Positions 466-15,860 are shown, counted from the stretch's first letter. The stretch: DNA of 64,000 nucleotides from Methanomassiliicoccus luminyensis B10 (GCF_000308215.1 NZ_CAJE01000014.1:1-64000), one strand, 5' to 3'. The notes: generated by a model from the sequence alone, not told the origin. Numbers and translations: made by a program.

Positions 466-3400
466 TCACTTCTTCCGCAGTAACAGCACGCCGAGCAGCG
501 CGGCGATGGCTATTGCCACCCCGGCTCCGACGTACAGCAGGGTATTGTCCCCTGGCACATCATCCTTGTCGGTGGTGCCGTCTCCGCCGGGTGTGTCTGA
601 GGGGTCGTCATCTCCAGGATCGGTGGGATCGTCGGTTTCCACGGCCCCTAGGCTCATTGGGTCCAAGGTCTTGTCCTCTCCCGGCGCGAGGGTCACGCTT
701 TGCTCCATGGGGCGGTAGCCTTCCTTGGTCACGTTGAGCGAGTACGTTCCAACGATGACGTTATCGAACTCGAAATATCCGGTGGCGTTGGTCGTCGTTG
801 ACACGGTGCTGTTCAGCCTTACCGTGGCGCCGGAGATGGGGTTGCCGTCAGCGTCCTTGACCGTTCCAACGATGGAGCCGGGTTCGGCCTCCAAGCTCGC
901 CCCGAACACCGAGTACCCGCCCGGGAGGCTCGGCAGAGGGTACCATGAGATGGTCACGTAGCCCTCCTTCGCCATGGTGATGGTGTAGTCACCTGAGGGG
1001 ACCTTGTCGAACTCGAAGTAGCCAGTCTCGTTGGTCGTGGTGGTCATGCCGTTGCTGAGCGTGACGGTGACGCCTGGGAGGGGGTTATACTCATGATCTG
1101 TGATCTCGCCATAGATGAGGCCCTCGTCCTTCAGGGTGGTGAACTGCCAATCGGGCTCTGCGAGATCGTTGCCCGCCATGTCCTTCCCGGTCACCGTCAC
1201 CGTGTAGACGGTGTCGTAATCCAGTGCGGAGTCAGGGGTGAAGATCGCAGTGTTGCCGTTCCAAGAAATAACTCCGGGGATCGAGGTGGCCCCGTTGCTG
1301 ACGACGATGTTCACCGAGTTCTGGCTCATAGCTTCCGAGAAGGTGACGCTTATCACGTCCTCGATCCAGACATCATCCTCTACGGGGCAGCGGTCCGTCA
1401 CGGTCGGCGCGATGTCATCTACAGTGAACGATATTGTGTCCACCGCCCAGTTCCCCGCGGCGTCGGTAACGTTGATGTATACTGTGTTGAGGCCGTCAGG
1501 ATAGCTGGAGGTGTTGCTCGTTCCCGTTATCGGCGTCCAGTTCTCCCCGTCGGTGCTGATGCGGACGGCGGTGACGTCAGAGCTGCTGGCCCATGTCACC
1601 GTAACTGAGGAGATGGCGAACACGGTGCCGGGTCCCGGAGAGATTATGCTCACGCTGGGGGGCGCGGTGTCATGCAGCTCTGGGTTCACAATGTTGGCCC
1701 CCGAGGTCGCCTGCACGTTTTGCTCCCAGGGCGCATATCCATCTTTGCTGACCGCCATGGCGTACGTTCCAGGCGCGACGCCACTGATCGTGAAGGCCCC
1801 GTTCTCGTCCGTTGTATCGATCTGGCCGCCGAACGATATTGTGGCCCCGGCGATCGGGAGACCGGTGGCGTCGTCGGTGACCACGCCGGAGATGACGGCG
1901 CCATCAACAGTGGTGAAAGTCCAAGAGGTCGTTCCGAGAGGGTTCCCGGCGACGTCCTTCCCGGTCACGCTGATGGCATAAGCGGTGCCATATGCCAGCG
2001 CCGGGTTCGGAGTGTACGTCGCGGTATTGCCGTTCCAGGCGAGCTCGACCTCTTCACCGTTCAGGGTCATGACCACCGAGGTCTGGTTCATGGCCTCGTC
2101 AAATGTCACGCCTATCGTGCCGCCGACGGCAACTTCGGCTCCCTCGGGCGACCTGGCCGTCACCGTGGGAGCGACGGTGTCCACGGTGAAGGAGACCGTG
2201 TCCGTCCCGAAGTGATAATCGTTGTCGCGCACCCACACCTGCACCCTGTAGGTGCCGTCAGGGAGGTCATTGAAGGCATAGCTTGTAGTGGGCATCTCAC
2301 CCAGGTACACGCCGTCGCGAGACACCTGGTAAGCGAGCTCCCCGGCCGCCTCTACGCCCCAGTGGACGACGACGTCATTGGTTTTAACGCGCGAGCCGTC
2401 GGCGGGGGACGTGATCGTGAGGCCGAACAACCTGACCGACACGGTGGCGCCCTGGCCGTTGCTGTATTCATTGCAGGCCGTTACGCTAAAGGTGTAGATC
2501 GAACCATAGGCCAGGTCGGTCACGGCGTAGGTAGGGGGGCCGTCCGCGCTGACAGTGGCGATCGGCGCCCCGTTCTGAGAGATCGCATAGTGGGTGATGT
2601 CCGCGCCGCCGGTGTAGACCGGGGCGGACCAGTTCAGGACAACACTGGTGCCGTCGACGGTGGCCGTCAGGCCGTTGGGCGCGGTGGCCCCGACACCCAG
2701 CATGGTCGTGGGCGCTCCGCCATACGTGGCGCCGAAGCCGGTAGCGCCATCGTGGCAGAAGACCTTAAGATCTGGGCTAGTGCCGTAGAACTCCACATAA
2801 TCGTCCAAAAGCGACGGGGCGTTGCCCTCGAACACCATCGCGATGAGGGAAGAGCACCCATAGAACGTATAGTACAGCGAGGGCACGCCGCTGCCCACGA
2901 TCACACTGGTCAGGGCGGTGCATTCATAGAACGCTCCTTCTCCCAGGTGGGTGACGCTGTTCGGTATCACGATGGAGGTCAGAGCGTTGCACCCATAGAA
3001 CGCGTAGTCCTCGATCGTTACCACGCCCTCGGGAATAGTGATGGAGCTGAGGTCGCTGTCACTGAACGCAGTGGACGAGATCGTTCGGACATTCGGGGAG
3101 ATATCGTATGCACCGATCTTGCCCGAGGGGCACATCCAGAGAGTAAGGGTTCCTCCTGAACCGCGGATGTGCAGGACGCCATCGATGTCCACGTACTTTT
3201 CATTGCCATCATCGACGAAAATGTTGTCAAGAGAGGGGTTGGACCCAAACGCCGCTCTCGGGAGGGTGTCCACGCCGCTGCCCAGGGTCACGGACACCAG
3301 GGCGGTGCAGAAGGAAAAGGCGTTCACGCCGATGGTGATTACGCCGCTGCCCATGGAGATAGAAACAAGGGAAGCGCCCCTGAACGCGTCGGCATGGATA

Positions 3401-3864
3401 GTGGAAACACTGCCCGGCACCTCAAATGAAGCCCCCGCCCTCGCGAGGGGGTACTTCAATAGAACGGTCATGCCCTTGCTGTACAGGACGCCACCCTCGC
3501 TCTCGTAGACCATATTGCCGGCGGCGACATTGATCGCGGTCAGGGCGGTGCAGCCGTCGAACGCGTTGTCCCAGATGACGTTGACGCTGGCCGGTATGTC
3601 GACAGAGGTCAGGGCGGCATTCCCGTTGAACACATTCAAGAGGAGAGCGGTCACAGGCTTTCCGTCGATCTCACTGGGTATCTCCACGGCACCGCCCAGA
3701 CCGTTATATTTTGTTATCTGGACCTCGGCACCCCCATTGATGAGGACATACTCGAAGTCATCCTCCGGCGCGGCGGACGCCACGCCCACCGGCCCTACGG
3801 TCACTACGGTCGCGGACAATACCATCAGAACAGCTAGCATCAGGCCTGACAACTTTTGATCCAT
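466..3864 (-). CDS. Large cell-surface protein with BspA-type leucine-rich repeats, FN3/Ig-like and carboxypeptidase-regulatory-like domains
   Basis: The start is placed at the ATG that opens a clear signal peptide (MDQKLSGLMLAVLM..., residues 1–31) with GGTGCTGAG just upstream; the reading frame continues upstream but without signal character. The exported part has about 350 residues of BspA/LRR_5-like repeats (recurring 'AF.GC.ALTSI.IP.SV'), then a fibronectin III-like domain, Ig-like and Big_5-like modules ('VTFDEAM/VTFSEAM' pairs), and three CarboxypepD_reg-like beta-sandwiches ('G.V.D..G.P..GA.V'). A Thr/Asp/Pro-rich linker and one C-terminal membrane segment ending LLLRKK complete it. 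This is the layout of an anchored S-layer-associated or adhesin protein. Ligand unknown. Confidence 0.85.
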   Translation of the reverse strand: MDQKLSGLMLAVLMVLSATVVTVGPVGVASAAPEDDFEYVLINGGAEVQITKYNGLGGAVEIPSEIDGKPVTALLLNVFNGNAALTSVDIPASVNVIWDNAFDGCTALTAINVAAGNMVYESEGGVLYSKGMTVLLKYPLARAGASFEVPGSVSTIHADAFRGASLVSISMGSGVITIGVNAFSFCTALVSVTLGSGVDTLPRAAFGSNPSLDNIFVDDGNEKYVDIDGVLHIRGSGGTLTLWMCPSGKIGAYDISPNVRTISSTAFSDSDLSSITIPEGVVTIEDYAFYGCNALTSIVIPNSVTHLGEGAFYECTALTSVIVGSGVPSLYYTFYGCSSLIAMVFEGNAPSLLDDYVEFYGTSPDLKVFCHDGATGFGATYGGAPTTMLGVGATAPNGLTATVDGTSVVLNWSAPVYTGGADITHYAISQNGAPIATVSADGPPTYAVTDLAYGSIYTFSVTACNEYSNGQGATVSVRLFGLTITSPADGSRVKTNDVVVHWGVEAAGELAYQVSRDGVYLGEMPTTSYAFNDLPDGTYRVQVWVRDNDYHFGTDTVSFTVDTVAPTVTARSPEGAEVAVGGTIGVTFDEAMNQTSVVMTLNGEEVELAWNGNTATYTPNPALAYGTAYAISVTGKDVAGNPLGTTSWTFTTVDGAVISGVVTDDATGLPIAGATISFGGQIDTTDENGAFTISGVAPGTYAMAVSKDGYAPWEQNVQATSGANIVNPELHDTAPPSVSIISPGPGTVFAISSVTVTWASSSDVTAVRISTDGENWTPITGTSNTSSYPDGLNTVYINVTDAAGNWAVDTISFTVDDIAPTVTDRCPVEDDVWIEDVISVTFSEAMSQNSVNIVVSNGATSIPGVISWNGNTAIFTPDSALDYDTVYTVTVTGKDMAGNDLAEPDWQFTTLKDEGLIYGEITDHEYNPLPGVTVTLSNGMTTTTNETGYFEFDKVPSGDYTITMAKEGYVTISWYPLPSLPGGYSVFGASLEAEPGSIVGTVKDADGNPISGATVRLNSTVSTTTNATGYFEFDNVIVGTYSLNVTKEGYRPMEQSVTLAPGEDKTLDPMSLGAVETDDPTDPGDDDPSDTPGGDGTTDKDDVPGDNTLLYVGAGVAIAIAALLGVLLLRKK

Positions 3865-4319
3865 CTCAGCACCAACTTGACTCCTCGAAATCCCGAAAAG
3901 TGGGTTCGGATGTTCTCGCGGAATATTATACTTGATTATTCCATAGATATGACGGACACCGATACATCGGCCCTCAGAAATCGGACCTTCGGAGCTCAGG
4001 CCGCGGGTTTTTGTATATGCATTATCAAGAACAACATCATCCTTAAACAATACATTGGAAGAGCGGCGGCCCACGCTCCCGGGCATTACCTTCCCAGCAT
4101 GGCAGGTAAGTGAATGCTGATCAATATCTTCTGATAATTGAACAGTGCCCTTGCTCTGGGAGCAAGGTGGACCCCTGCAATAACAATGATGATCTTGTGG
4201 GCGGCCCCAGGGGGGGTCTTGCGGCGACCGTCACAGGCGGTCTGTACCTCCCATGAATACCTGCCGGATCCCACATTCAACTCGGGGCCATTGATCTTTC
4301 CGCCACCCTAAATTTGGCC
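3865..4319. other. Intergenic region with surface-protein leader
   Basis: There are 455 bases between trpS (stop at 4320) and the surface-protein start, both on the minus strand. No convincing gene is seen. The AT-rich parts near 3920–3960 and 4020–4050 may contain the surface-protein promoter. The trpS-proximal part contains an inverted repeat around GCCCTTGCTCTGGGAGCAAGG (about 4146–4166), a possible transcription-end hairpin, and the structured element at 4211–4270. Confidence 0.4.
4211..4270. ncRNA. Structured intergenic element, copy 3 (divergent)
   Basis: A 7-pair stem (GGGGGGT 4211–4217 with ACCTCCC 4246–4252, one G·U) closes a loop that holds TTGCG and an internal hairpin (GACCG 4226–4230 with CGGTC 4238–4242). 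After the stem comes ATGAATACCTGCCGGATC. Stem, TTGCG, inner hairpin and CCTGCCG follow in the same order as in the copy at 46399–46465, but the primary sequence is less conserved. I treat this as a probable relative, not a certain one. Confidence 0.3.
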
Positions 4320-5675: not shown

Positions 5676-6455
5676 GTGCTGCGGGCCGGGCAAGTGGACG
5701 AGGACCGCTGGGAGCGGGAGAGGCGCATCAAGTGGCTGGACCTTGAGAAGCTGCGGGGTTCGCGAGTCCTGGTGATCGGCGCCGGGGCGCTGGGCAACGA
5801 GGCGGTGAAGGACCTGGTGCTGGCGGGCATCGGGCACATCACCCTCGTGGACATGGACCACGTGGTCCGCTCCAACCTGAGCCGGTGCGTGCTGTTCAGG
5901 GAGAGGGACCATGCGGAGAGGAGGCTCAAGGCCGAGGCGGTGGCGGAGCGGGCCGTCGACCTCGATCCCGGTGCGTCGGTGACCCCCGTGGCGGGGAGGG
6001 TGGAGGACCTCCCGCCCGAAGTATGGAAGGAGCACCGTCTGGTCCTGGGATGCCTGGACAACGTGGCCGCCCGCCTGCACGTGAACTCCCACGCCTACTT
6101 TCACGGCGTCCCTTACGTCGACGGCGGCACTGACGGGTTCTCCGGCCGGGTGCAGGTGGTGGTCCCCCCGGCCACGCCGTGCCTGCAGTGCGGGCTGAAC
6201 CGCACCCACTACAAGATACTGGAGAAGCGGTACTCCTGCACCGGCGCGGAGGTGGCGTTCTACCAGCCCAAGGTGGCCGCGGAGATAACCACCACCTCGA
6301 TCGTCGCGGCGGTGCAGGTGAGGGAGGCCATCAAGCTGCTGTGCGGCCTGGAGGACCGCACGATCAAGAACGTGCTGCACTACGACGGGCTGCGGGGAAG
6401 ATGGGACGAGCTGGAGCTCTCCTTCGACCCCGAGTGCCCCATGCATTCGCTCTGA
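5676..6455 (+). CDS. E1-like ubiquitin-activating enzyme (ThiF/MoeB/Uba fold)
   Basis: Predicted to adenylate the C-terminal glycine of the ubiquitin-like protein encoded next door and, if it has E1 activity, to carry it as a thioester. The 259 residues form a single ThiF-type Rossmann domain: GAGALGNE at 35–42, DMDHVVRSNLSR at 59–70 (ATP-binding 'D.D.V..SNL.R'), and LGCLDNVAAR near 125–133. CLQC (169–172) and a C-terminal CPMH (254–257) probably bind zinc. Cys188 in YSCTGAEV aligns with the catalytic-cysteine position of ThiF/E1 proteins. Start is GTG, downstream of a purine-rich GTGGGGGTC. A sulfur-carrier role (MoeB/ThiF-like) is the main alternative, but the E2 and JAMM neighbours favour conjugation. 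Confidence 0.85.
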   Translation: MLRAGQVDEDRWERERRIKWLDLEKLRGSRVLVIGAGALGNEAVKDLVLAGIGHITLVDMDHVVRSNLSRCVLFRERDHAERRLKAEAVAERAVDLDPGASVTPVAGRVEDLPPEVWKEHRLVLGCLDNVAARLHVNSHAYFHGVPYVDGGTDGFSGRVQVVVPPATPCLQCGLNRTHYKILEKRYSCTGAEVAFYQPKVAAEITTTSIVAAVQVREAIKLLCGLEDRTIKNVLHYDGLRGRWDELELSFDPECPMHSL

Positions 6456-6464
6456 TTACTGTAG

Positions 6465-6493
6465 CCTACATGTAGGCCCACAAGCTTTTTACG
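6465..6493 (+). promoter_or_regulatory. 14-base palindrome and promoter upstream of the Ubl–E2–JAMM genes
   Basis: GCCTACATGTAGGC (6465–6478) is a perfect palindrome. It is followed by CTTTTTACG (6485–6493), a weak TATA-like element about 30 bases before the ATG of the ubiquitin-like gene, which would give an almost leaderless transcript. The three downstream genes may thus be transcribed separately from the E1 gene, and the palindrome is a candidate operator. Confidence 0.4.
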
Positions 6494-6522
6494 TCACTGA
6501 ATAATTTTGACGACTGGATATT

Positions 6523-6780
6523 ATGCCTCTCAGAGTAAAGGTCAGGAACGCCGAGTCAGGCGCCAGCGTGGACATGGAGCTGGAGGCGGAGAACACCGTT
6601 GTGGAGATCATCGAGGGCGCCGCGGGGTACTGGGAGAAGGACGCCGGCGCGTACGTCCTCAGGAGGGGCAAGAAGCTGCTTCGGGGCCAGCAGACCGTGG
6701 CCGAGGCCATGCTCATGAACAACGATGAGCTGGAGCTTATCCCCGACCCCGAAGGCGGTGCCCATGCCCCTTCCCGCTGA
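6523..6780 (+). CDS. Ubiquitin-like beta-grasp protein with Gly-Gly and C-terminal tail
   Basis: An 85-residue protein that reads as a ubiquitin fold: strand 1 LRVKVRN, strand 2 ASVDMELEAENTV, helix VVEIIEGAAGYW, then YVLRRGKKLLRGQQTVAEAMLMNNDELELIP, which mirrors the 'f.GK.L.d..tl.dy.i....i.lv' half of ubiquitin. It has Gly78-Gly79 followed by a six-residue tail AHAPSR. The tail would have to be removed to expose the glycine for activation, and the JAMM protease two genes on is the obvious candidate. The 3' end overlaps the E2 start by 17 bases. Confidence 0.85.
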   Translation: MPLRVKVRNAESGASVDMELEAENTVVEIIEGAAGYWEKDAGAYVLRRGKKLLRGQQTVAEAMLMNNDELELIPDPEGGAHAPSR

Positions 6781-7270
6781 TATCCTCGTCATCAGGCTGA
6801 GGAACGAGCTGTCGGCCTGCCGCAGCTATATCAGGGACATGCCGGACCTGTCGGCGCCGTCCAGGGTGCGGTTCCCCGTGGAGGTGGAGGTCGAGCTCGC
6901 CAAGGTCCCCGGGCCCATTATCGAGGAGGGCAAGGTCGGGAGCACCTACCTGCACCGGTTCAGCATCAGCATCGGGAAGAACTACCCGTTCGAGAAACCG
7001 ACGGTGAGGTGGATGTCCCCCATCTTCCACCCCAACATCATGATGCCCGACGACGGCGGGCACGTCTGCACCAAGCTCCTGGAGGAGTGGGGGTTCAACT
7101 CCACCCTGATATCGTTCATTAAAGGGGTGGAGTCCCTGGTCATGAACCCCAACCCCGCCAGCCCGTTCGGCACCGACAGCTGCACCGCCGCGGCGGAGCA
7201 CTTCAACTGCGCCGAGGTCAAGCTGCCGCCGATGCTCAAGCCTCCCGCCCCCAGGGTGGTGAGGCCCTGA
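6764..7270 (+). CDS. E2-like ubiquitin-conjugating enzyme (UBC fold, HPN and catalytic Cys present)
   Basis: Predicted to accept the ubiquitin-like protein from the E1-like enzyme and pass it to substrates. The protein of 168 residues has the core E2 signature: HPN at 89–91 and catalytic Cys102 in GGHVCTKLL, with three more residues between them than is usual in eukaryotic E2s. The tail TLISFIKGVESLVMNPNPASPF matches the 'tl..vL.si..LL..PNP..P' helix of E2s. The ATG at 6764 is preferred because GGCGGTG lies 3 bases upstream and the UBC fold begins there; an upstream GTG would add 13 residues without similarity. It overlaps the Ubl gene, implying translational coupling. Confidence 0.88.
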   Translation: MPLPADILVIRLRNELSACRSYIRDMPDLSAPSRVRFPVEVEVELAKVPGPIIEEGKVGSTYLHRFSISIGKNYPFEKPTVRWMSPIFHPNIMMPDDGGHVCTKLLEEWGFNSTLISFIKGVESLVMNPNPASPFGTDSCTAAAEHFNCAEVKLPPMLKPPAPRVVRP

Positions 7271-7923
7271 GCGCCCCCACCATCACCGGCGTCCAGGATG
7301 TCGAGGTCAAGGAATCGCCGCCCCCGCCGACGGAGAGGACGAAAGCGCATGGGTGGCTGAACGCCAACCGCCTCAGCGCCTACGAGGAGGCGCGCAAGGA
7401 GGGGCTGGAACTGTACATATCCAAGGTGGCCGAAGAGAAGATGCGCAATCATGCCCTGGCGCACGTGAACGAGCGCAAGGAGGTCATGGGTCTCATGCTC
7501 GGAGGGGTGTACCGCCACAACGGGAGGGAGTACGCGCTGGTGCGCGACGTGGTCACCACTGACCTCGACGCCACCGAGGTGAGCGTGCGCTTCGACCGCG
7601 ACGCCTTCGAGAAGCTGTTCGCCTCGCTCGACGAATCGGGGTTCCGGTACATCATCGTGGGATGGTACCACTCCCACCCGTCCTATGGCTGCTTCCTCTC
7701 ATCCACCGACATCCAGACCCAGAGGGCCATGTTCAACCGGAGCTTCCACTCCGCCCTGGTCATCGACCCGGTGAACCGCGAGATCGACGTGTTCCGCCTC
7801 CGGGACGGGCGCGTCGAGTCGCGGCCGTTCGCAGTGTACTGGGACCCCTACCAGGAGCCCTATGCCAGCAAGGTGGTGCGCTTCAGAAAGCAGGTGAAGG
7901 GCCCGGAAACGGCGATCCCTTAG
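7267..7923 (+). CDS. JAMM/MPN+ metalloprotease, Rpn11/CSN5-like (start uncertain)
   Basis: Predicted zinc isopeptidase that trims the Ubl tail and/or removes it from conjugates. The catalytic set is complete: Glu in NERKEVMG, and HSHPSYGCFLSSTD, an exact H-x-H-x7-S-x2-D motif that also keeps the Tyr-Gly-Cys of Rpn11/CSN5. The first conserved strand (LYISKVAEEKM) lies upstream of the first available GTG (7426), and no ATG, GTG or TTG occurs in frame before it back to a stop at 7120. A CTG at 7267 overlaps the E2 stop as CTGA and has GGTGGTGAGG just upstream. I therefore give 7267 as the provisional start (218 residues); 7426 would give 165. It meets the next gene tail to tail, overlapping by 4 bases. 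Confidence 0.8.
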   Translation: MSAPTITGVQDVEVKESPPPPTERTKAHGWLNANRLSAYEEARKEGLELYISKVAEEKMRNHALAHVNERKEVMGLMLGGVYRHNGREYALVRDVVTTDLDATEVSVRFDRDAFEKLFASLDESGFRYIIVGWYHSHPSYGCFLSSTDIQTQRAMFNRSFHSALVIDPVNREIDVFRLRDGRVESRPFAVYWDPYQEPYASKVVRFRKQVKGPETAIP

Positions 7924-8459
7924 ACCCAGATAGCGTGCCGGCGCCGCAGGGAGGCTTCGTTCTGCGAGGTCCGCTCCATTATAATGGGGACGAGGGAATC
8001 GAACAGCACCAGCGCGGTGTCCTCGAAGATCGTCCCCAGCGGCGCGTACTTCCTCTTCTGCTCGTCTTTCACCAGGGGTATCTCCAGTATCAGATTGGAG
8101 GCGTGCCCCAGCTTGGAGTTGGGGTTCGACGTCACGGAGATTACGGTCGCGCCGACCCGGCGCACGATGTTGGCGGTCTGCACCGCCGACATGGTCTCCC
8201 CGGTGTTAGATACTATAATAACGAGGTCCTCCGCATCCACGATCGGCGTGGTCATGTCGCCGACGAAGTGCACGTTGAAGCCCAGCTGAACGAGGCGAAC
8301 GGCGAAGGCCTGCCCCACCAGCCCGGAGCGTCCGACGCCGTAGATGAAGATCTTCTTCGACCCCACTATGGCAGCGATGGCGCCGTCCAGGGCGGAGGGG
8401 TCCATCTTCTCCAATGCTTCCTGCATCTCCCGAAGGATGTAGCGGAGCGGCTCCTGCAT
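7920..8459 (-). CDS. hxlB: SIS-domain sugar isomerase, probable 6-phospho-3-hexuloisomerase
   Basis: The protein of 179 residues is a single SIS domain: FIYGVGRSGLVGQAFAVRL (phosphosugar-binding loop), VIIVSNTGET, and VISVTSNPNSKLGHASN. Length and the pattern FEDTALVLFDSLV near the C-terminus fit 6-phospho-3-hexuloisomerase, which interconverts hexulose-6-phosphate and fructose-6-phosphate. In archaea this enzyme makes pentoses by running the ribulose monophosphate route in reverse. It is encoded 7 bases after the endonuclease IV-like gene, probably as one unit. Confidence 0.8.
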   Translation of the reverse strand: MQEPLRYILREMQEALEKMDPSALDGAIAAIVGSKKIFIYGVGRSGLVGQAFAVRLVQLGFNVHFVGDMTTPIVDAEDLVIIVSNTGETMSAVQTANIVRRVGATVISVTSNPNSKLGHASNLILEIPLVKDEQKRKYAPLGTIFEDTALVLFDSLVPIIMERTSQNEASLRRRHAIWV

Positions 8460-8466
8460 TCCCGCC

Positions 8467-9678
8467 TCACTTCTTTTTCTTGGCCGGGGGTTTGGGGGTC
8501 GGCTTCTTCTCCGGCTTCTCCGCCTTGGGCCGGGGAGCGGGCTTGCGCTCCGGACGCTCCCTTGTGGTGATGGACTGGAATTCCTCGAGGTCGGGGGTCT
8601 CTATCTCCACCTCCTCCTCTTCGTCCTCCTCGTCCCCATCCTTGGCGCCCTTCTTGTCGCTCTTCTTGCCCTTGATCTCCTTGGCCACCCTCTTGGTCAG
8701 CACGCGCTCGTAGATGACCTTCATGTACATGGCGTCGTGCTCCAACAATGGAGAGGAGGAGATGACGGTGATATTGGGGTTCTCTTCCGCCAAGAACTCG
8801 GCCAGAGGCTCGAACTTGAGATCACCCTTCTTGATGGGGGTGATCCGTTTCTCGTTCCCGCCCTCGTGCTCCACGCCAGAGAAATGAGTATAGAAGTGCC
8901 CGTTGACGTAGTCCTTGACCTTGTCAAGCAAGGCGCCGAAGTCCTGCGGCTCCCTGAGCCCACCTGATTCTCGGGCATGCACGTGGGCGAAGTTGATCAC
9001 CGGCACGGTGCCCTTGACCTCGTCGCACAGCTCGAGAACTTCCTCCAGCGAGCCGAAGACCTCCTGGCGCCCCGACATCTCCAGCCCCAGCTTGGGCCTG
9101 AGCTTGTTGTCCTCCCACCATTCCATGACCGCGGCGATGTTGTCGGTGATGTTCTTCTTGGCCTGCTTCTTGCTGCCTTCGCCATACAGGCCGAGGTGCG
9201 TCACCACCATGGTACCGTCCATCTGGTCGGTCATCGTCCCCGCCCACCGGATGTTGTCGATGCACCGCTCGGTGAGCTCGGAATTGCTTGACAGGTCCAT
9301 GTAATAGGGGGTGTGCATGGACAGCTGGACGTCCATCTCCTTGCCCATCTCCCCCAGCTCCTGCAGCTCCAGGAAGTTCTGCGCGAGCCCTGAGGCCAAG
9401 GTGATGAGGGTGTCGTCCTCCTTGATCTTCTCGGTCGGCTTGGTCAGCCGGACCTCCTTCTTTCCTTTGACCCGGTTGATCTCCATGATGAGGTCGCTCT
9501 CCACCTCCAGGGGGGTGAGTCCTACCTCCTCCTCATCGGGGAAGCGGTCTATGACGTTGACGCGCACCATCTGGACCTCCATGGCGTTAAGGCCGAGGCT
9601 GTGCACGTCCTCTATGCCGTCGCGCAAGGTCCTGCCTTTGCATGAAAGTGGAATACCGGCCGGGCCAAATCTTATCAT
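8467..9678 (-). CDS. Endonuclease IV-like TIM-barrel protein with charged C-terminal tail
   Basis: About 310 residues form an AP endonuclease family 2/xylose isomerase-like barrel, starting MIRFGPAGIPLSCKG and including LSMHTPYYMDL, MVVTHLGLY, LGLEMSG, INFAHVHAR, YTHFSGVEH and ITVISSSP, which supply the His/Glu/Asp metal ligands of Nfo-type enzymes. Predicted to cut DNA at abasic sites. The last 90 residues are unusual: an acidic run (DGDEEDEEEEVEIE) followed by a Lys/Pro-rich tail ending PPAKKKK, which could mediate DNA or protein contacts. The next gene upstream is the mobile element at 9.8 kb, on the other strand. Confidence 0.8.
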   Translation of the reverse strand: MIRFGPAGIPLSCKGRTLRDGIEDVHSLGLNAMEVQMVRVNVIDRFPDEEEVGLTPLEVESDLIMEINRVKGKKEVRLTKPTEKIKEDDTLITLASGLAQNFLELQELGEMGKEMDVQLSMHTPYYMDLSSNSELTERCIDNIRWAGTMTDQMDGTMVVTHLGLYGEGSKKQAKKNITDNIAAVMEWWEDNKLRPKLGLEMSGRQEVFGSLEEVLELCDEVKGTVPVINFAHVHARESGGLREPQDFGALLDKVKDYVNGHFYTHFSGVEHEGGNEKRITPIKKGDLKFEPLAEFLAEENPNITVISSSPLLEHDAMYMKVIYERVLTKRVAKEIKGKKSDKKGAKDGDEEDEEEEVEIETPDLEEFQSITTRERPERKPAPRPKAEKPEKKPTPKPPAKKKK

Positions 9679-9812
9679 AACGACACCACCATAACAACCC
9701 CCCTAATCCATTTTTCCCCTAGGATATAGTGATTAAGCTATAGTGATAATAATATGTATCGCTGGAAAAAGTACCTTTTGAAGAAAAATATTACACGTAG
9801 CTAGATGTATCA

Positions 9813-9831
9813 AATCGCTAAATCAGCGATT
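9813..9831 (+). repeat. Left-end hairpin of the TnpB element
   Basis: AATCGCTAAATCAGCGATT: a 7-base perfect stem with a 5-base loop. Short subterminal hairpins of this type are recognised by TnpA in IS200/IS605 elements. It lies 9 bases before the preferred tnpB ATG at 9841, which argues that the upstream ATG at 9805 is not the real start. Confidence 0.55.
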
Positions 9832-9840
9832 CCTAATCCG

Positions 9841-10986
9841 ATGTTCCGCACCGTCAAGATACTATTGGAGCACACCGTCGAGCTCGTTGAGACGGTCAGC
9901 CTATTTAATCAGGCGTGCCAGCGTGTCTTGGATTGGGGCCAGGCAAACAAGCAGCATAATAAATACAAGCTGGACCGCGCGACATACTATGATGCGAGAG
10001 AAGAATTCCCCTCGCTACCTTCACCACTAGTGCAAACGGCCAGAGATCAGGCAAGCGACATGCTCAAGCGCGATAAGTTCAAGCATAAGATCAGGAAGAA
10101 ACCATCCAGTTCGATTCGTTACGATAAGAGAACGTTAAGGGTCTTCCTGCAATCCGGATACCTCAGCATAAGCACAGTATCCGGAAGAAAGCGGTACGAC
10201 TTCATTCTACCCGACTACTATCGGCAATACCAATCATGGATGGTGCAGAACGCACAGCTTATCATCGGTCGGTACGCTTGCTTCCTCAACGTCCAGGTAG
10301 AGGGCGAAACTCCGCCGTTCAACTGCGGGAATCGTCGCTTAGGAATCGATCTGGGCATCAACAACATCGCGGTGTGCTCAGACAACACTTTCTACAGCTC
10401 CAAACATCTCAAGAACGTCAAAGGCCAGTATCGCCATCTCAAGGCTGAACTGCAGTCCATAGGCACTCGCTCCGCTAGACGAAAACTTCGTGAAGTAAGC
10501 GGGCGAGAGAGACGGTTCGTTCGGGACTCGAACCATTGTGTGGCCAAAGAGGTAGTGAGCAAGCCGTATGACGTTTTCGTGTTCGAGGATTTGAAAAGTA
10601 CCAGGGAAATCAAGAGGAGCAGGGAGTTCAACCCCAAGCTGGGTAGCTGGTCGTTCGGCGAATTAATTCGGTTTGTTAGGTACAAAGCTGAAGCTCTGGG
10701 AAAACGAGTAGAGGTGATCGATCCTCACTATACTTCTCAAACCTGCTCTCGATGCGGTCACGTGTCCTCAAGTAACAGAACAGGAAGGCAGTTCGAATGC
10801 GTTCAGTGCAGGTTCACGCTGGACGCCGACTTGAACGCCAGCAGGAACATCGCCGCCTTCTCTACATGGGAAGGCGGCAGGCTGTCTGTCAGCCAGCCAA
10901 ATGCAGCGAGTGGTGAAGCCAAAGGCCATATGGCACTTGAGGCTGAGTTTAGCTGCAAGCCCGTGAGCATGCTCGTGGGCAGCTGA
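9841..10986 (+). CDS. tnpB: TnpB-type RNA-guided nuclease (OrfB)
   Basis: RuvC-like nuclease of the TnpB family, ancestor of Cas12. All RuvC residues are visible: Asp in GIDLGINN, Glu in VFEDLKS, Asp in LDADLNASRNI. The zinc ribbon is intact (CSRCGHVSSSNRTGRQFECVQC, ligands CxxC and CxxC). Length of 381 residues is typical. The ATG at 9841 (MFRTVKILLEHTVELVE) matches the usual TnpB beginning. Nothing suggests decay, so guided DNA cleavage that maintains the element is plausible; no tnpA is present, so transposition would need help in trans. Confidence 0.9.
   Translation: MFRTVKILLEHTVELVETVSLFNQACQRVLDWGQANKQHNKYKLDRATYYDAREEFPSLPSPLVQTARDQASDMLKRDKFKHKIRKKPSSSIRYDKRTLRVFLQSGYLSISTVSGRKRYDFILPDYYRQYQSWMVQNAQLIIGRYACFLNVQVEGETPPFNCGNRRLGIDLGINNIAVCSDNTFYSSKHLKNVKGQYRHLKAELQSIGTRSARRKLREVSGRERRFVRDSNHCVAKEVVSKPYDVFVFEDLKSTREIKRSREFNPKLGSWSFGELIRFVRYKAEALGKRVEVIDPHYTSQTCSRCGHVSSSNRTGRQFECVQCRFTLDADLNASRNIAAFSTWEGGRLSVSQPNAASGEAKGHMALEAEFSCKPVSMLVGS
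10951..10984 (+). ncRNA. Right-end hairpin / probable omegaRNA 3' structure
   Basis: Stem AGCT…AGCT with a GCAA bulge, then GCCC…GGGC and the perfect palindrome GAGCATGCTC at the tip. It spans the last codons of tnpB. In TnpB systems the omegaRNA is transcribed across the 3' end of tnpB and the right end, with the guide taken from the flanking DNA, so the bases just after about 10985 would be the guide. Confidence 0.45.
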
Positions 10987-11135: not shown

Positions 11136-14100
11136 ATGTTCACTCTAGACGACAAGACATTAGATGCCCGTATAGAGAGATGGAGAAAGAACCTCATCGA
11201 CACCAGCTTGAGGAACAGCCTGCTGAACCTCCGGGAGGGGAGGCAGGGCTGCCTGAAGCTGATGAGGCCCCATCCGCAAGCGATCTACGACCGCCTGGTC
11301 AAGAACAAGAGCGATTTTGAGCTGTACTTCGGCGCCGATGACGGGACCGAGCAGTACGAGAACAAGGTGCTACCAGATCTCGGACGCGACCGGGCGGAAC
11401 GCTCCCTGCTGAGCATGCGCACCAAGGCCCGCGCGGCGGTGAGGGAGCAGGGCACCAACATCTTGTTCCTTACGGTCGGCGCGCTGGAGTGGTCCCATGC
11501 CGTCACCGATGGAGAGCGCATCCGTTCCCCCCTGGTCCTGATCCCGGTGGAGCTGGTCAGGGAAGGTCCGCTCCGCCCCTACCGCCTGGTGCACACCGGC
11601 GACGACATCTCCGTCAACCCCACCCTCGCCCAGAAGCTCAAGCTGGAGCTGCGTCTGACGCTCCCCCAACTCCCCGAGGGGGACCTGGACATCCAGAAGT
11701 ACCTCGATGCGGTCGCCGATTCGGTCGCTCCGCTGAAGGACTGGAAGATCACCAGCGAGGTGCGCCTGGGGCTGTTCAACTTCCCCAAGATGTGCATGTA
11801 CGACGAGCTTGCCACTTACCGTTCCGTGGCCGCCGCCCATCCTGTCATCAGGTCCATGGCCGGCGACACCGGGGCGTCGCACGCCACCCTGCTGGAGGAA
11901 CCTACCTCCCCTCTGGACAGGGACCTGCCGGCTGGATCGTTCCAGATCCTGGACGCCGACTCCAGCCAGCAGGAGGCGGTCGCGCTCGCCGCCGAGGGAG
12001 CGAGCTTCGTGCTGCAGGGCCCCCCCGGGACGGGCAAGTCGCAGACCATCACCAACATAATATCCGAATCGCTGGCCAAGGGCCGCACCGTGCTGTTCGT
12101 CTCGGAGAAGATGGCCGCCCTGGAGGTGGTGAAGAGGCGCCTGGACGAGAACGGCTTGGGCGACTATTGCCTGGAGCTTCACAGCCACAAGGCCTCCCGT
12201 CAGACGGTGGCGAACGAGCTGTCCAAGTCCCTGACCCCGGTCCCGGTGCAGCCGCAGCAGGTGCAGGCACTTCACGAGCTCGAGGGGTCGAGGGCCCGCC
12301 TGGACAGCTATGTCGACGCCCTGCACCGGACCCGGGACGGCCTGGGCATGCCGGTGTTCCAGCTCCTGGAGGAACTGGTCCGCCTGAAGGACGCTCCCGA
12401 GCTGGTCATCTCGCTCCCCAACATCGAGAAGCTCAGCTGGAAGGAGCTGGAGGCCATGGCCCCGCTGGTCCGCGACCTTCAGAGATACGCGCCGGTGCTG
12501 GCGCAGAGGTCCGACCACCCCTGGACCGACTGCCTGGTGGACTCCTGGAAGCTGGGCGCCCAGTCGGAGATGGTGCACCGCCTGTCGGACCTCAAGTTCG
12601 CCCGCACCCGCCTGAACGAGACATCATCGCGGTTCGCCCAGGACCACGGGCTCCCCGAGCCGGCCGCCCTGGGGGACGTGGAGCAGATGGTGGGGCAGTT
12701 CAGGCACATCCTGCTGACCACCTACCCCCTCCCGAGATGGATCGAGAAGGACCCTGTCCCCCTGCTCAGGGCGATGGACAACATGAAGGAATCCTACTCC
12801 CAGCTCAATGAGAGGATGACCTGGCTCCGCGCCCGGTTCAACGAGGACGTCCTCGCCCTGGACCTGGCGTCCATGCAGGAGCGGTTCACCGAGAAGTACA
12901 GCTCATTCACCAGGTCATTCAACTCCCGCTACCGCCACGACCTGGACCTCCTGCGTTCGATGTGGCGCGGGGACCGGAAGCTCACCTACGACGAGGTCAT
13001 GGCCGAGCTGCCGGAAGTGATCAACATCGCGCACCTCGCCGACCGGGTCCGGTCGATGGAAGCGGAGTGCACCTACGCCTTCGGCAAGTACTTCCAGGGC
13101 CAGAGGACCGACTGGGAGGCGCTGCACCGCTCCGTGGAGTGGGCCAGGCAGTACTACGAGAAGTTCGGGGAGCCGGCCAGCGACGAAGTGCGCTCCCTGC
13201 TGTGCGACGGGCCGGAGAAGCTCATCGGCCTGAAGGGCCGAATCGACGAGCTGGAGACCTCCTGCCTCAGATTCCAGGAGGCCCTCTCGGCGCTGTCTCA
13301 GTATTTCACTCTCGACAAGCTCGCCGGCGGGCGGCCTCTCCACGAGGTGCCGTTCGAGGAGCTGGGGCAGTGGGCCCAGTACCACCTCGACACCGCCTCC
13401 TCCTTCCGGGAGTGGGCCGAGTCGAACCGCGTCAGGAGGCAGCTGGAGCAGGCCGGCCTGGGAGACCTCGTCATCCTGGCGGAGCGCTCCGCTCTGCCTG
13501 GGGACCTGTGGAACGGCATCCGCAAGCGGCACCTCACGCTGTGGTACGACCTGCTGGTGTCCCGCGACCGCCTGCTCCGCGACTTCAACCGCGAGGAGCA
13601 GGAGAGCGAGGTGGCGAGGTTCGAACGCCTGGACGGGGAGATGCTCCGCACCGCCGCCTCCAGGACCCGCGCCGTTCTCGACGAGAGGAGGAGGGAACTG
13701 TGCGAGGACGCCTCCCCCGCCCACGGCAGCGGCCTGTGGGTGCTGAAGCACGAGGTCAACCGTAAGAAGAACATCCGCCCCCTGAGGGAGCTGTTCCAGC
13801 AGGCCTGGGAGCCCATCCTGGCCCTGCGCCCCTGCCTGCTCATGAGCCCGCTGTCGGTCTCCATGTTCCTAGACCCGTCCAAGATCAAGTTCGACCTGGT
13901 CATCTTCGACGAGGCGTCGCAGATCCGCCCGGAGGACGCCATCGGCTCCATCATGAGGGGAAAGCAGGTCATCGTGGTGGGCGACGCCAAGCAGCTGCCC
14001 CCTACTGACTTCTTCCGCGAGGTCAGCTACGACGACGAGGACGACATCCCCGACCTGGAGAGCGTGCTGGACGAGTGCTCGTCCTCCATGCCCCAGAGGA

Positions 14101-15860
14101 TGCTGCGGTGGCACTACCGGAGCAGGCACGAGTCGCTCATCGCGTTCTCCAACCACTACTTCTACAACGATCGGCTGAGCACTTTCCCGTCATCGGTCAG
14201 CCATGAAGGCCTGGGCGTTTCGTTCGTCCATGTGCCCGAGGGCGAGTACGACCGCGGCAGGAGCCGCCGGAACCCCGTGGAAGCGGCCAAGGTCGTGGAG
14301 CTGGTGTTCCAGCACTTCCGGAGCGAGGCGCCCGGCTCCATTGGCGTGGTGGCGTTCTCGGAGGCCCAGCAGATGGCCATCCTGGAGGAGGTGGAGAAGC
14401 GGCTGAAGATCGAGCCGGACATGGCCCCGTTCTTCAACGAGGGGAAGGAAGAGGAGTTCTTCGTCAAGAACCTGGAGAACGTGCAAGGTGACGAGAGGGA
14501 CGTCATGATCTTCAGCGTCGGCTACGGCAAGGACGCCCAGGGCCGCATGCACCAGGGCTTCGGCCCCCTGAACCGCCCCGGCGGGGAGAGGAGGCTCAAC
14601 GTCGCCATCACCCGCGCCAGGAGGCAGGTGGTGCTGGTATCGTCCCTGCTTCCGGAGGATATCGAGGGCACCGCCCCCGGCGCGGAGATGCTGCGCAACT
14701 ACATTGAGTACGCCATGAAGGGCGGCGACAAGGGTTCGCTGCCCAACAGGGAGGACGCGTTCTCGTACCCCATCGAGGAGGATATCCGCAACGCCCTGGT
14801 GGCCAAGGGGCTGAAGGTCGACCGTAGGGTCGGCTGCTCGGAGTTCCGCATCGACCTGGCCGTCCAGGACGGCGACCGGGAGGGCAACTACCTCCTGGGG
14901 ATCATGTGCGACGGCGCTTCGTACCGCTCCGGCAAGACCACCAGGGACCGCGAGCGCCTCCGCCGGGAGGTGCTGGAGGGCCTGGGCTGGAACGTCATGA
15001 GGATGTGGTCGCAGGACTGGATCCACGACCCCGAGAAGGAGGTGGAGAGGGTCATGGAGGCCCTCAAGAAAGCGAGGGAGAATGCTGCCTGGGAGGAGGG
15101 CAAGAGGGCGCTGATCAAAGCGTCCAGGAGCCTGGAGGCCACCGCCCCCGCCGTCCCGCTTCCTGCAGCCCCCGAAGCGCCCGCTGCTCTTCCCGCCGCT
15201 GCCCCGGCCAAGGAGGTCATGGTGGCCGCCCTGTCCGACGGCCCCGCCGCCAGGAGCGCGGCGGACGCCTGCCCCCTGTACCAGGCGGTGGACTTCCGGG
15301 AAAGGGAGGACCTGTTGGAGAAGTATGCCGACGACCCGGCCGAGGGGCTGAGGGACGCGCTCCTGCTGGTGGTCAATGAGGAGGGGCCGGTCCACGCATC
15401 GGTGGCCAAGGCCCGCATCAAGGACTACATCCGCCTGGCCGGCGGGAAGATGGCCGCCCTGGACCGCCGCTTCGACGAGGCGGTCAAGTCCCTGGACGGC
15501 TACTCCGTCACCATGGACGGGGAGTTCCTGTGGCCGTGCGGCATGACCGCCCCGGCGGTGCGCCGGTTCCCCGACCGCCACAGCCTGGACCTCGTTTGCC
15601 CCCGAGAGCTGGAGGAGGCGGTCCTGTACTGCCTCAGGGAGGGAGCGTGCCCGGAGAAGGAGGTGGTCATGAGGACCTCCGCCCTGTACGGGTACAAGCG
15701 CCCCACCCCGGCCATGAAGGAGAGGATCCTCTCGGCCGCCTGCGATCTCGTGAACAGGGGCATGGCGTACAAGGACACCGAGGGGCTCCGCAGGGCCGAG
15801 GAGGAAAAGGCCGCCCCGGAGGAGGATGCTGGAGAGGCGCCCCTCGCCGGGACCCCCTGA
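11136..15860 (+). CDS. Giant DUF4011–SF1 helicase–Vsr-like–DUF3320 protein (Hhe-type), copy A
   Basis: A 1574-residue multidomain protein. Order: DUF4011 (about 1–250, starting DARIERWRKNLIDTSLRNSLLNL); a DNA2/NAM7-like SF1 helicase with GPPGTGKSQT (near 296), a long helical insert, FDEASQ (near 920), NVQGDERDV (near 1115) and NVAITRARRQ (near 1155); a Vsr/PD-(D/E)xK-like nuclease (about 1211–1310); an Ala/Pro linker; and a DUF3320 domain (about 1380–1475). This architecture is the published Hhe anti-phage type. The nuclease motif reads GIMCDGASYRS, with Met where copy B has Glu, so cleavage may be impaired. Anti-phage function is inferred from architecture. Confidence 0.85.
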   Translation: MFTLDDKTLDARIERWRKNLIDTSLRNSLLNLREGRQGCLKLMRPHPQAIYDRLVKNKSDFELYFGADDGTEQYENKVLPDLGRDRAERSLLSMRTKARAAVREQGTNILFLTVGALEWSHAVTDGERIRSPLVLIPVELVREGPLRPYRLVHTGDDISVNPTLAQKLKLELRLTLPQLPEGDLDIQKYLDAVADSVAPLKDWKITSEVRLGLFNFPKMCMYDELATYRSVAAAHPVIRSMAGDTGASHATLLEEPTSPLDRDLPAGSFQILDADSSQQEAVALAAEGASFVLQGPPGTGKSQTITNIISESLAKGRTVLFVSEKMAALEVVKRRLDENGLGDYCLELHSHKASRQTVANELSKSLTPVPVQPQQVQALHELEGSRARLDSYVDALHRTRDGLGMPVFQLLEELVRLKDAPELVISLPNIEKLSWKELEAMAPLVRDLQRYAPVLAQRSDHPWTDCLVDSWKLGAQSEMVHRLSDLKFARTRLNETSSRFAQDHGLPEPAALGDVEQMVGQFRHILLTTYPLPRWIEKDPVPLLRAMDNMKESYSQLNERMTWLRARFNEDVLALDLASMQERFTEKYSSFTRSFNSRYRHDLDLLRSMWRGDRKLTYDEVMAELPEVINIAHLADRVRSMEAECTYAFGKYFQGQRTDWEALHRSVEWARQYYEKFGEPASDEVRSLLCDGPEKLIGLKGRIDELETSCLRFQEALSALSQYFTLDKLAGGRPLHEVPFEELGQWAQYHLDTASSFREWAESNRVRRQLEQAGLGDLVILAERSALPGDLWNGIRKRHLTLWYDLLVSRDRLLRDFNREEQESEVARFERLDGEMLRTAASRTRAVLDERRRELCEDASPAHGSGLWVLKHEVNRKKNIRPLRELFQQAWEPILALRPCLLMSPLSVSMFLDPSKIKFDLVIFDEASQIRPEDAIGSIMRGKQVIVVGDAKQLPPTDFFREVSYDDEDDIPDLESVLDECSSSMPQRMLRWHYRSRHESLIAFSNHYFYNDRLSTFPSSVSHEGLGVSFVHVPEGEYDRGRSRRNPVEAAKVVELVFQHFRSEAPGSIGVVAFSEAQQMAILEEVEKRLKIEPDMAPFFNEGKEEEFFVKNLENVQGDERDVMIFSVGYGKDAQGRMHQGFGPLNRPGGERRLNVAITRARRQVVLVSSLLPEDIEGTAPGAEMLRNYIEYAMKGGDKGSLPNREDAFSYPIEEDIRNALVAKGLKVDRRVGCSEFRIDLAVQDGDREGNYLLGIMCDGASYRSGKTTRDRERLRREVLEGLGWNVMRMWSQDWIHDPEKEVERVMEALKKARENAAWEEGKRALIKASRSLEATAPAVPLPAAPEAPAALPAAAPAKEVMVAALSDGPAARSAADACPLYQAVDFREREDLLEKYADDPAEGLRDALLLVVNEEGPVHASVAKARIKDYIRLAGGKMAALDRRFDEAVKSLDGYSVTMDGEFLWPCGMTAPAVRRFPDRHSLDLVCPRELEEAVLYCLREGACPEKEVVMRTSALYGYKRPTPAMKERILSAACDLVNRGMAYKDTEGLRRAEEEKAAPEEDAGEAPLAGTP

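Follow-up and report, generated by a model that had tools for sequence, protein, structure and literature searches.

Four genes on the plus strand, in the order E1-Ubl-E2-JAMM, lie within positions 5676-7923 of the window, the 64,000-nucleotide stretch of DNA analysed here, as judged from the sequence and a Pfam search. Together they probably specify a complete pathway for the conjugation and deconjugation of a ubiquitin-like protein (Ubl) that would run E1-E2-(RING E3). Neighbouring genes overlap, by 17 nt between Ubl and E2 and by 4 nt between E2 and JAMM. The host is very probably the cultured human-gut methanogen Methanomassiliicoccus luminyensis B10, of the order Methanomassiliicoccales, in agreement with the Thermoplasmatota origin proposed in the first-pass annotation, and its genome comprises 26 contigs and 2,620,233 bases at 99.7% completeness. 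That annotation had also placed all four genes correctly, although the start of the JAMM gene needed correction (most likely to CTG 7267), and its description of the module as eukaryote-like is apt for the Ubl, E2 and JAMM but less so for the minimal ThiF-type E1. The pathway reading draws on the intact motifs, the Ubl and E2 folds, the joint absence of E1 and E2 from 11/61 relatives, the contrast in Gly-Gly retention (77/77 vs 0/16), the co-occurrence of a RING protein and low dN/dS, with the absences clustering phylogenetically into about three Gly-Gly losses and four or five RING/E2 co-losses.

The E1-like activating enzyme (positions 5676-6455, plus strand; 259 aa, GTG start) has a ThiF fold that Pfam assigns to residues 22-255 (5e-53). 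A test for the ATP loop and the catalytic Cys found both. The nucleotide-binding loop GAGALG (residues 35-40; positions 5778-5795) has G35, G37, A38 and G40 invariant, and the predicted catalytic Cys188 (RYSCTG; positions 6237-6239) is invariant in 22 aligned sequences, so that the E1 hallmarks named at first pass are conserved as well as present. The same alignment of 22 relatives also shows invariant GxGAxGN and zinc ligands C169/C172/C254/H257. No extra Cys or ubiquitin-fold domain of the UBA1/Caldiarchaeum style was found in the E1, and no domain known for E2 recruitment; since ThiF spans nearly the entire protein (22-255 of 259 residues), neither a second catalytic-cysteine domain nor a ubiquitin-fold domain could fit. 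Such extra domains are not universal among E1s, as UBA5 and MoeB are without them. From its domain content, the E1 is classed as a minimal ThiF/MoeB-type enzyme.

The Ubl modifier is encoded as an 85 aa precursor (positions 6523-6780, plus strand). Its ColabFold model (pLDDT 88) finds SUMO, ISG15, ubiquitin and Caldiarchaeum ubiquitin as best Foldseek matches (TM about 0.8); MoaD and ThiS are missing from the top 50. No Pfam family exceeds the cut-off for this protein, ThiS does not match it, and NCBIfam gives no match to either the Ubl or the E2. As modelled, the Ubl has a ubiquitin fold with a conserved C-terminal Gly-Gly. The protein ends in IPDPEGG followed by the six-residue tail AHAPSR; the codons of the conjugating Gly-Gly occupy positions 6754-6759 and those of the tail, whose removal by the JAMM protein is predicted, positions 6760-6777. 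IPDPEGG also closes the Ubls of most relatives, where 0 to 15 variable residues follow. The predicted tryptic remnant is 25 residues long (GQQTVAEAMLMNNDELELIPDPEGG), but Glu precedes the Gly-Gly, so digestion with Glu-C should leave GG.

The E2 conjugating enzyme (positions 6764-7270, plus strand; 168 aa) starts at an ATG inside the Ubl gene and matches UQ_con (4e-14). Its HPN motif (H89-P90-N91; positions 7028-7036) and catalytic Cys102 (positions 7067-7069), both reported at first pass, are invariant in 34 sequences, as is Arg11 in the N-terminal helix. The published account of the Caldiarchaeum system marks an invariant arginine in the E1-binding helix of its E2. The ColabFold model (pLDDT 89) matches E2s in Foldseek (best E 4e-6, TM 0.5-0.6), and the modelled protein is a UBC fold with HPN and a catalytic Cys.

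The fourth gene (positions 7267-7923, plus strand) encodes an Rpn11/CSN5-like JAMM (MPN+) protease of 218 aa (JAB 1e-15), with a probable CTG start and a TAG stop. In most relatives the JAMM gene starts at an ATG, GTG or TTG overlapping the E2 stop (NTGA), where the window reads CTGA, and the first ATG/GTG/TTG in the frame (GTG 7426) falls within the conserved part of the protein. From the orthologous NTGA start position in relatives, CTG 7267 is the most likely start. At its N-terminus the protein carries a conserved extension, about 45 residues long. Its zinc motif HSHPSYGCFLSSTD (positions 7669-7710) follows the pattern E-xn-HSHPxxxCxxSxxD in a GWYHSHP context, and the motif residues (both His, Ser and Asp) are invariant in 20 sequences, which upholds the Rpn11/CSN5-type motif described at first pass. 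The best solved match is yeast Rpn11 (2.7e-18), with Caldiarchaeum Rpn11 at 2e-13, and by motif and closest similarity the enzyme is assigned to the Rpn11/CSN5 type. As a separate observation, its stop codon (positions 7921-7923) is TAG, which is able to encode pyrrolysine in this order; it is probably a plain stop, and read-through would run antisense into the neighbouring SIS gene.

Far from being a single oddity, the module is conserved in many Thermoplasmatota. A search for the E2 finds it in 50/61 relatives, 97/300 genomes of the class and 80/390 of the phylum, and the named relatives of the locus belong to Methanomassiliicoccales and other Thermoplasmata. Chance is excluded, because E1, Ubl and E2 occur together in all of the first 30 order loci fetched (JAMM was missed in one, at a contig end) and dN/dS is at most 0.21. 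Across 80 named loci the order E1-Ubl-E2-JAMM prevails; a few lack one gene, some of them at contig ends, and two loci with long fused proteins (L108 and L112) have the order Ubl-E2-JAMM-E1 instead. The module is flanked, as in the window, by an SIS-domain gene (positions 7920-8459, minus strand; 70/80 relative loci) and an AP-endonuclease-like gene (positions 8467-9678, minus strand; 65/80), conserved neighbours that serve as synteny markers, the SIS gene standing outside the pathway. By eye, ribosomal protein genes come next in many loci. In pairwise comparisons the module genes diverge in step with the AP-endonuclease gene beside them (r 0.79-0.84), and near relatives give dN/dS values of 0.00-0.09 (Ubl), 0.02-0.17 (E2), 0.05-0.21 (E1) and up to 0.19 (JAMM), which indicates that inheritance of the module is old and mostly vertical, under strong purifying selection. 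Several loci depart from the common form. In L108 and L112 (L108:4846-5979, L112:4915-5982; Thermoplasmata) the Ubl frame runs on without a break from a zinc ribbon and DUF835 upstream of it, suggesting a DUF835-Ubl fusion, and the JAMM protein has a long, coiled-coil-like C-terminal extension. Another Thermoplasmata locus (L100:6131-7189) has Ubl and E2 and nothing that matches JAMM; in place of the module E1, a MoeB-like E1 paralog lies nearby.

The fate of the Gly-Gly follows that of the enzymes. The same 11/61 relatives lack both the E2 and the E1 ortholog (counted at over 320 bits), and several genomes without E1 and E2 retain a Ubl, mostly at the old site beside the SIS and AP-endonuclease genes. 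The Gly-Gly noted at first pass is kept in 77/77 Ubls of E2-bearing loci vs 0/16 orphan Ubls from relatives that have neither E1 nor E2 (Fisher 3e-18, uncorrected for kinship), where 14/16 orphans come from one genus (g17) and independent losses number about three (g4, g10, g17). Selection on the Gly-Gly and co-loss of the parts are evident at sequence level, as are the gene set itself and its intact active sites. Decay is under way in one genome (G051), whose E1 is without the ATP loop or Cys and whose MPN protein is without HxH. In the g10 gut lineage (G020, G029, G261, L128-L130), the E2 is kept, the Ubl ends exactly at Gly-Gly, and the MPN protein, where seen, has lost its zinc motif (HxH), as expected in this one lineage if JAMM maturation is needed only where there is a tail. 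An intact JAMM is retained in many species whose Ubls have no tail, which suggests a role for it in deconjugation too. In two loci (L140:1941-2357, L141:1843-2211), an orphan Ubl is followed by a degenerate MPN-like protein (identified by eye) without zinc ligands; such Ubl and MPN proteins in genomes without E1/E2 may persist as a non-covalent binding pair.

The first-pass annotation was right that no E3 is encoded beside the module, and no RING occurs within about 6 kb of it in 80 loci; a RING candidate does, though, sit elsewhere in the genome. Searching the host genome with zf-RING_2 gives a single match (3.4e-5, slightly short of the curated cut-off), while 14 control genomes give none. 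The matching protein has 254 residues, with a RING of the form CQIC..C..FH..C..CPFC and zinc ribbons. Its relatives are mostly C4HC3 with eight zinc ligands, whereas the window's family is without the fourth and so has 7/8; zf-RING_2 matches 34/35 family members, the host copy falling below the curated cut-off. A strongly hydrophobic N-terminal stretch is found in many relatives and is weak in the host copy. Against solved structures, the RING profile scores best with RNF165, Arkadia, RNF4 and RLIM (2e-6 to 3e-5), mostly E3 ligases. Within the order (class set), the RING is present in 42/42 E2-positive members, and among the E2-negative members (at least 22) it is missing in at least 20 and present in G292 (strong) and G210 (weak); the co-occurrence (Fisher 1e-14) is uncorrected for kinship and corresponds to about four or five RING/E2 co-losses. 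The link between RING and E2 is claimed within the order only. For the class as a whole such a link was rejected, as E2-negative families outside the order commonly give RING-like matches. In the host genome the RING gene lies just upstream of Pop5, followed by psmA and, by eye, SBDS, Rrp4, Rrp41 and Rrp42. RING-Pop5-psmA recurs in that order on one strand in 16/19 fetched loci, with RING and Pop5 in one more and contig ends cutting off two. This unlinked RING protein is a likely E3 candidate on the strength of its profile and its distribution.

In the proposed pathway, JAMM would trim the AHAPSR tail and expose the Gly-Gly, which E1 would adenylate and then bind as a thioester at Cys188 before the Ubl is handed on to Cys102 of E2. 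Aided by the unlinked RING protein, whose gene heads the proteasome-alpha cluster, E2 would attach the Ubl to lysines, from which JAMM would later take it off. We infer the thioester chemistry, the role of the RING as E3 and the coupling to the proteasome. The pathway possibly feeds the proteasome, and for the fate of the conjugates the leading guess is quality control or turnover by the proteasome. In a fuller version of this scheme, offered as a tentative possibility, ubiquitin conjugation would depend on the RING as an E3 expressed together with proteasome alpha, and the conjugates would go to the archaeal proteasome; such a pathway would be old in Thermoplasmatota, and gut specialists would have dismantled it repeatedly. 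It is unlikely, but worth weighing, that the E1-E2-Ubl-JAMM cascade works with single Ubl units and without E3 or proteasome, for example in enzyme regulation or stress, and that the RING has another role, such as in RNA or proteasome biogenesis. The RING and the module are indeed unlinked in most genomes, the RING sits in an RNA-processing/proteasome cluster, and SAMP conjugation in Haloferax works without E2 and E3, according to PMC6043591. However, through several losses the presence of the RING keeps step with that of E2, and the RING profile resembles E3 ligases, both of which favor the RING-assisted pathway.

Inactive sites, or membership of sulfur-carrier or bacterial families, had been raised at first pass as grounds for doubt. 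Active-site residues are intact in the aligned relatives, and profile and fold searches place the module in neither sulfur-carrier nor bacterial defence families. The minimal ThiF/MoeB-type E1 would suit a sulfur carrier of the MoaD/ThiS/Urm1 type, serving cofactor or tRNA thiolation, but this function is very improbable, given the ubiquitin-, SUMO- and ISG15-like fold of the Ubl, the absence of MoaD/ThiS from its top 50 matches, a separate MoeB/ThiF-ThiS pair in the host genome (G000:C24:125804-126801), and a conserved E2 and JAMM that sulfur transfer does not need. The bacterial systems Bil, CBASS Cap2/Cap3 and 6A-6E share the logic of E1, E2, Ubl and JAB, and stand in a defence context, with E1 and E2 often fused and a patchy distribution. 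That the module is such an anti-phage Ubl system (Bil, type II CBASS Cap2, 6A-6E) gained by transfer is the least credible reading, since the E1 and JAMM matches to the PADLOC E1-E2, JAB and BilD models are partial and weak only, the module has no CD-NTase or defence partner, its housekeeping synteny is conserved, its distances track the AP-endonuclease gene (r 0.79-0.84), its E2 has no match in 72,556 plasmids, and its distribution within the order resembles scattered loss.

The module is real, conserved and probably functional, a variant among the known archaeal ubiquitin systems. The operon of Caldiarchaeum subterraneum (PMC5654768, PMC6043591) likewise holds Ub, E1, E2 and an Rpn11-like JAMM close together; its pro-ubiquitin has a short tail after Gly-Gly that JAMM removes there, a removal that is predicted here, and its genome encodes a RING E3 whose RING, like the one here, deviates around the third and fourth zinc ligands. 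The Caldiarchaeum E1 has further domains, one of them ubiquitin-like, its RING lies in the operon and its JAMM is on the other strand, whereas here the E1 is minimal, the RING is unlinked and E1-Ubl-E2-JAMM share one strand. The Ubl ending IPDPEGG, and a RING protein with zinc ribbons, often a hydrophobic N-terminal helix in relatives, and a place adjoining the proteasome alpha gene, also set the present system apart from that of Caldiarchaeum. The Asgard system (PMC9192718) shares Ub, E1, E2 and RING in an archaeon but is linked to ESCRT genes, of which there are none in the module neighbourhood. PSMD14/Rpn11, CSN5 and the 'JAMM-3' group of PMC6043591 share GWYHSHPxxxCxxSxxD with the JAMM protein, whose best solved match is yeast Rpn11. 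Unlike PSMD14/Rpn11 and CSN5, it is encoded with Ubl, E1 and E2 and has an extended N-terminus, and its likeness to Rpn11 is one of sequence. The Haloferax SAMP and archaeal Urm1 systems also have an archaeal Gly-Gly Ubl, a MoeB-like E1 and a JAMM, but they have no E2 or E3 and their Ubls are MoaD/ThiS/Urm1-like.

Parts of this system have surfaced before. The M. luminyensis protein WP_019177758 was named an Rpn11 ortholog in a published JAMM phylogeny (Fort et al., 2015; PMC4453063), and it is almost surely the JAMM of the window, since this family has a single JAMM in the genome. Hennell James et al. (2017; PMC5654768) scanned every archaeal assembly available in February 2017 for such clusters and distinguish three cluster types, and the Methanomassiliicoccales cluster may be among those of their supplementary figure. 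The CsRpn11 paper of 2018 (PMC6043591) defines the JAMM-3 group and mentions prokaryotic JAMMs nearer to Rpn11 whose operons also hold Ub, E1 and E2 homologs, and its text gives no taxa for them. The word ubiquitin is absent from the main text of Borrel et al. (PMC4153887), where the M. luminyensis B10 genome is listed. Searches of the open literature, which takes in few subscription papers, found no description of the Methanomassiliicoccales module as such, its RING or its loss pattern.

Elsewhere in the window, an IS605-type TnpB (OrfB_IS605, Cas12f1-like zinc domain) lies just past the SIS/AP-endonuclease block (positions 9805-10986), and positions 11136-15860 encode a DUF4011 helicase of 1574 aa with an MTES_1575 nuclease domain, a possible defence gene. 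On the minus strand, positions 466-4086 encode a secreted-looking protein of 1206 aa in which leucine-rich repeats, Ig-like domains and a C-terminal membrane anchor are seen by eye; it is possibly a surface adhesin.

Complete ubiquitin cascades outside eukaryotes have been described mainly from uncultured Aigarchaeota and Asgard archaea. If the pathway proposed here is true, a ubiquitin cascade would be open to study in a growing organism, with close relatives as natural loss mutants and controls. If it works, the deep history of ubiquitin (one archaeal origin vs several transfers) and a primitive link between ubiquitin tagging and the proteasome would become directly testable. If the RING-proteasome reading also holds, this gut methanogen would have a full ubiquitin-proteasome pathway outside eukaryotes, Asgard archaea and Aigarchaeota.
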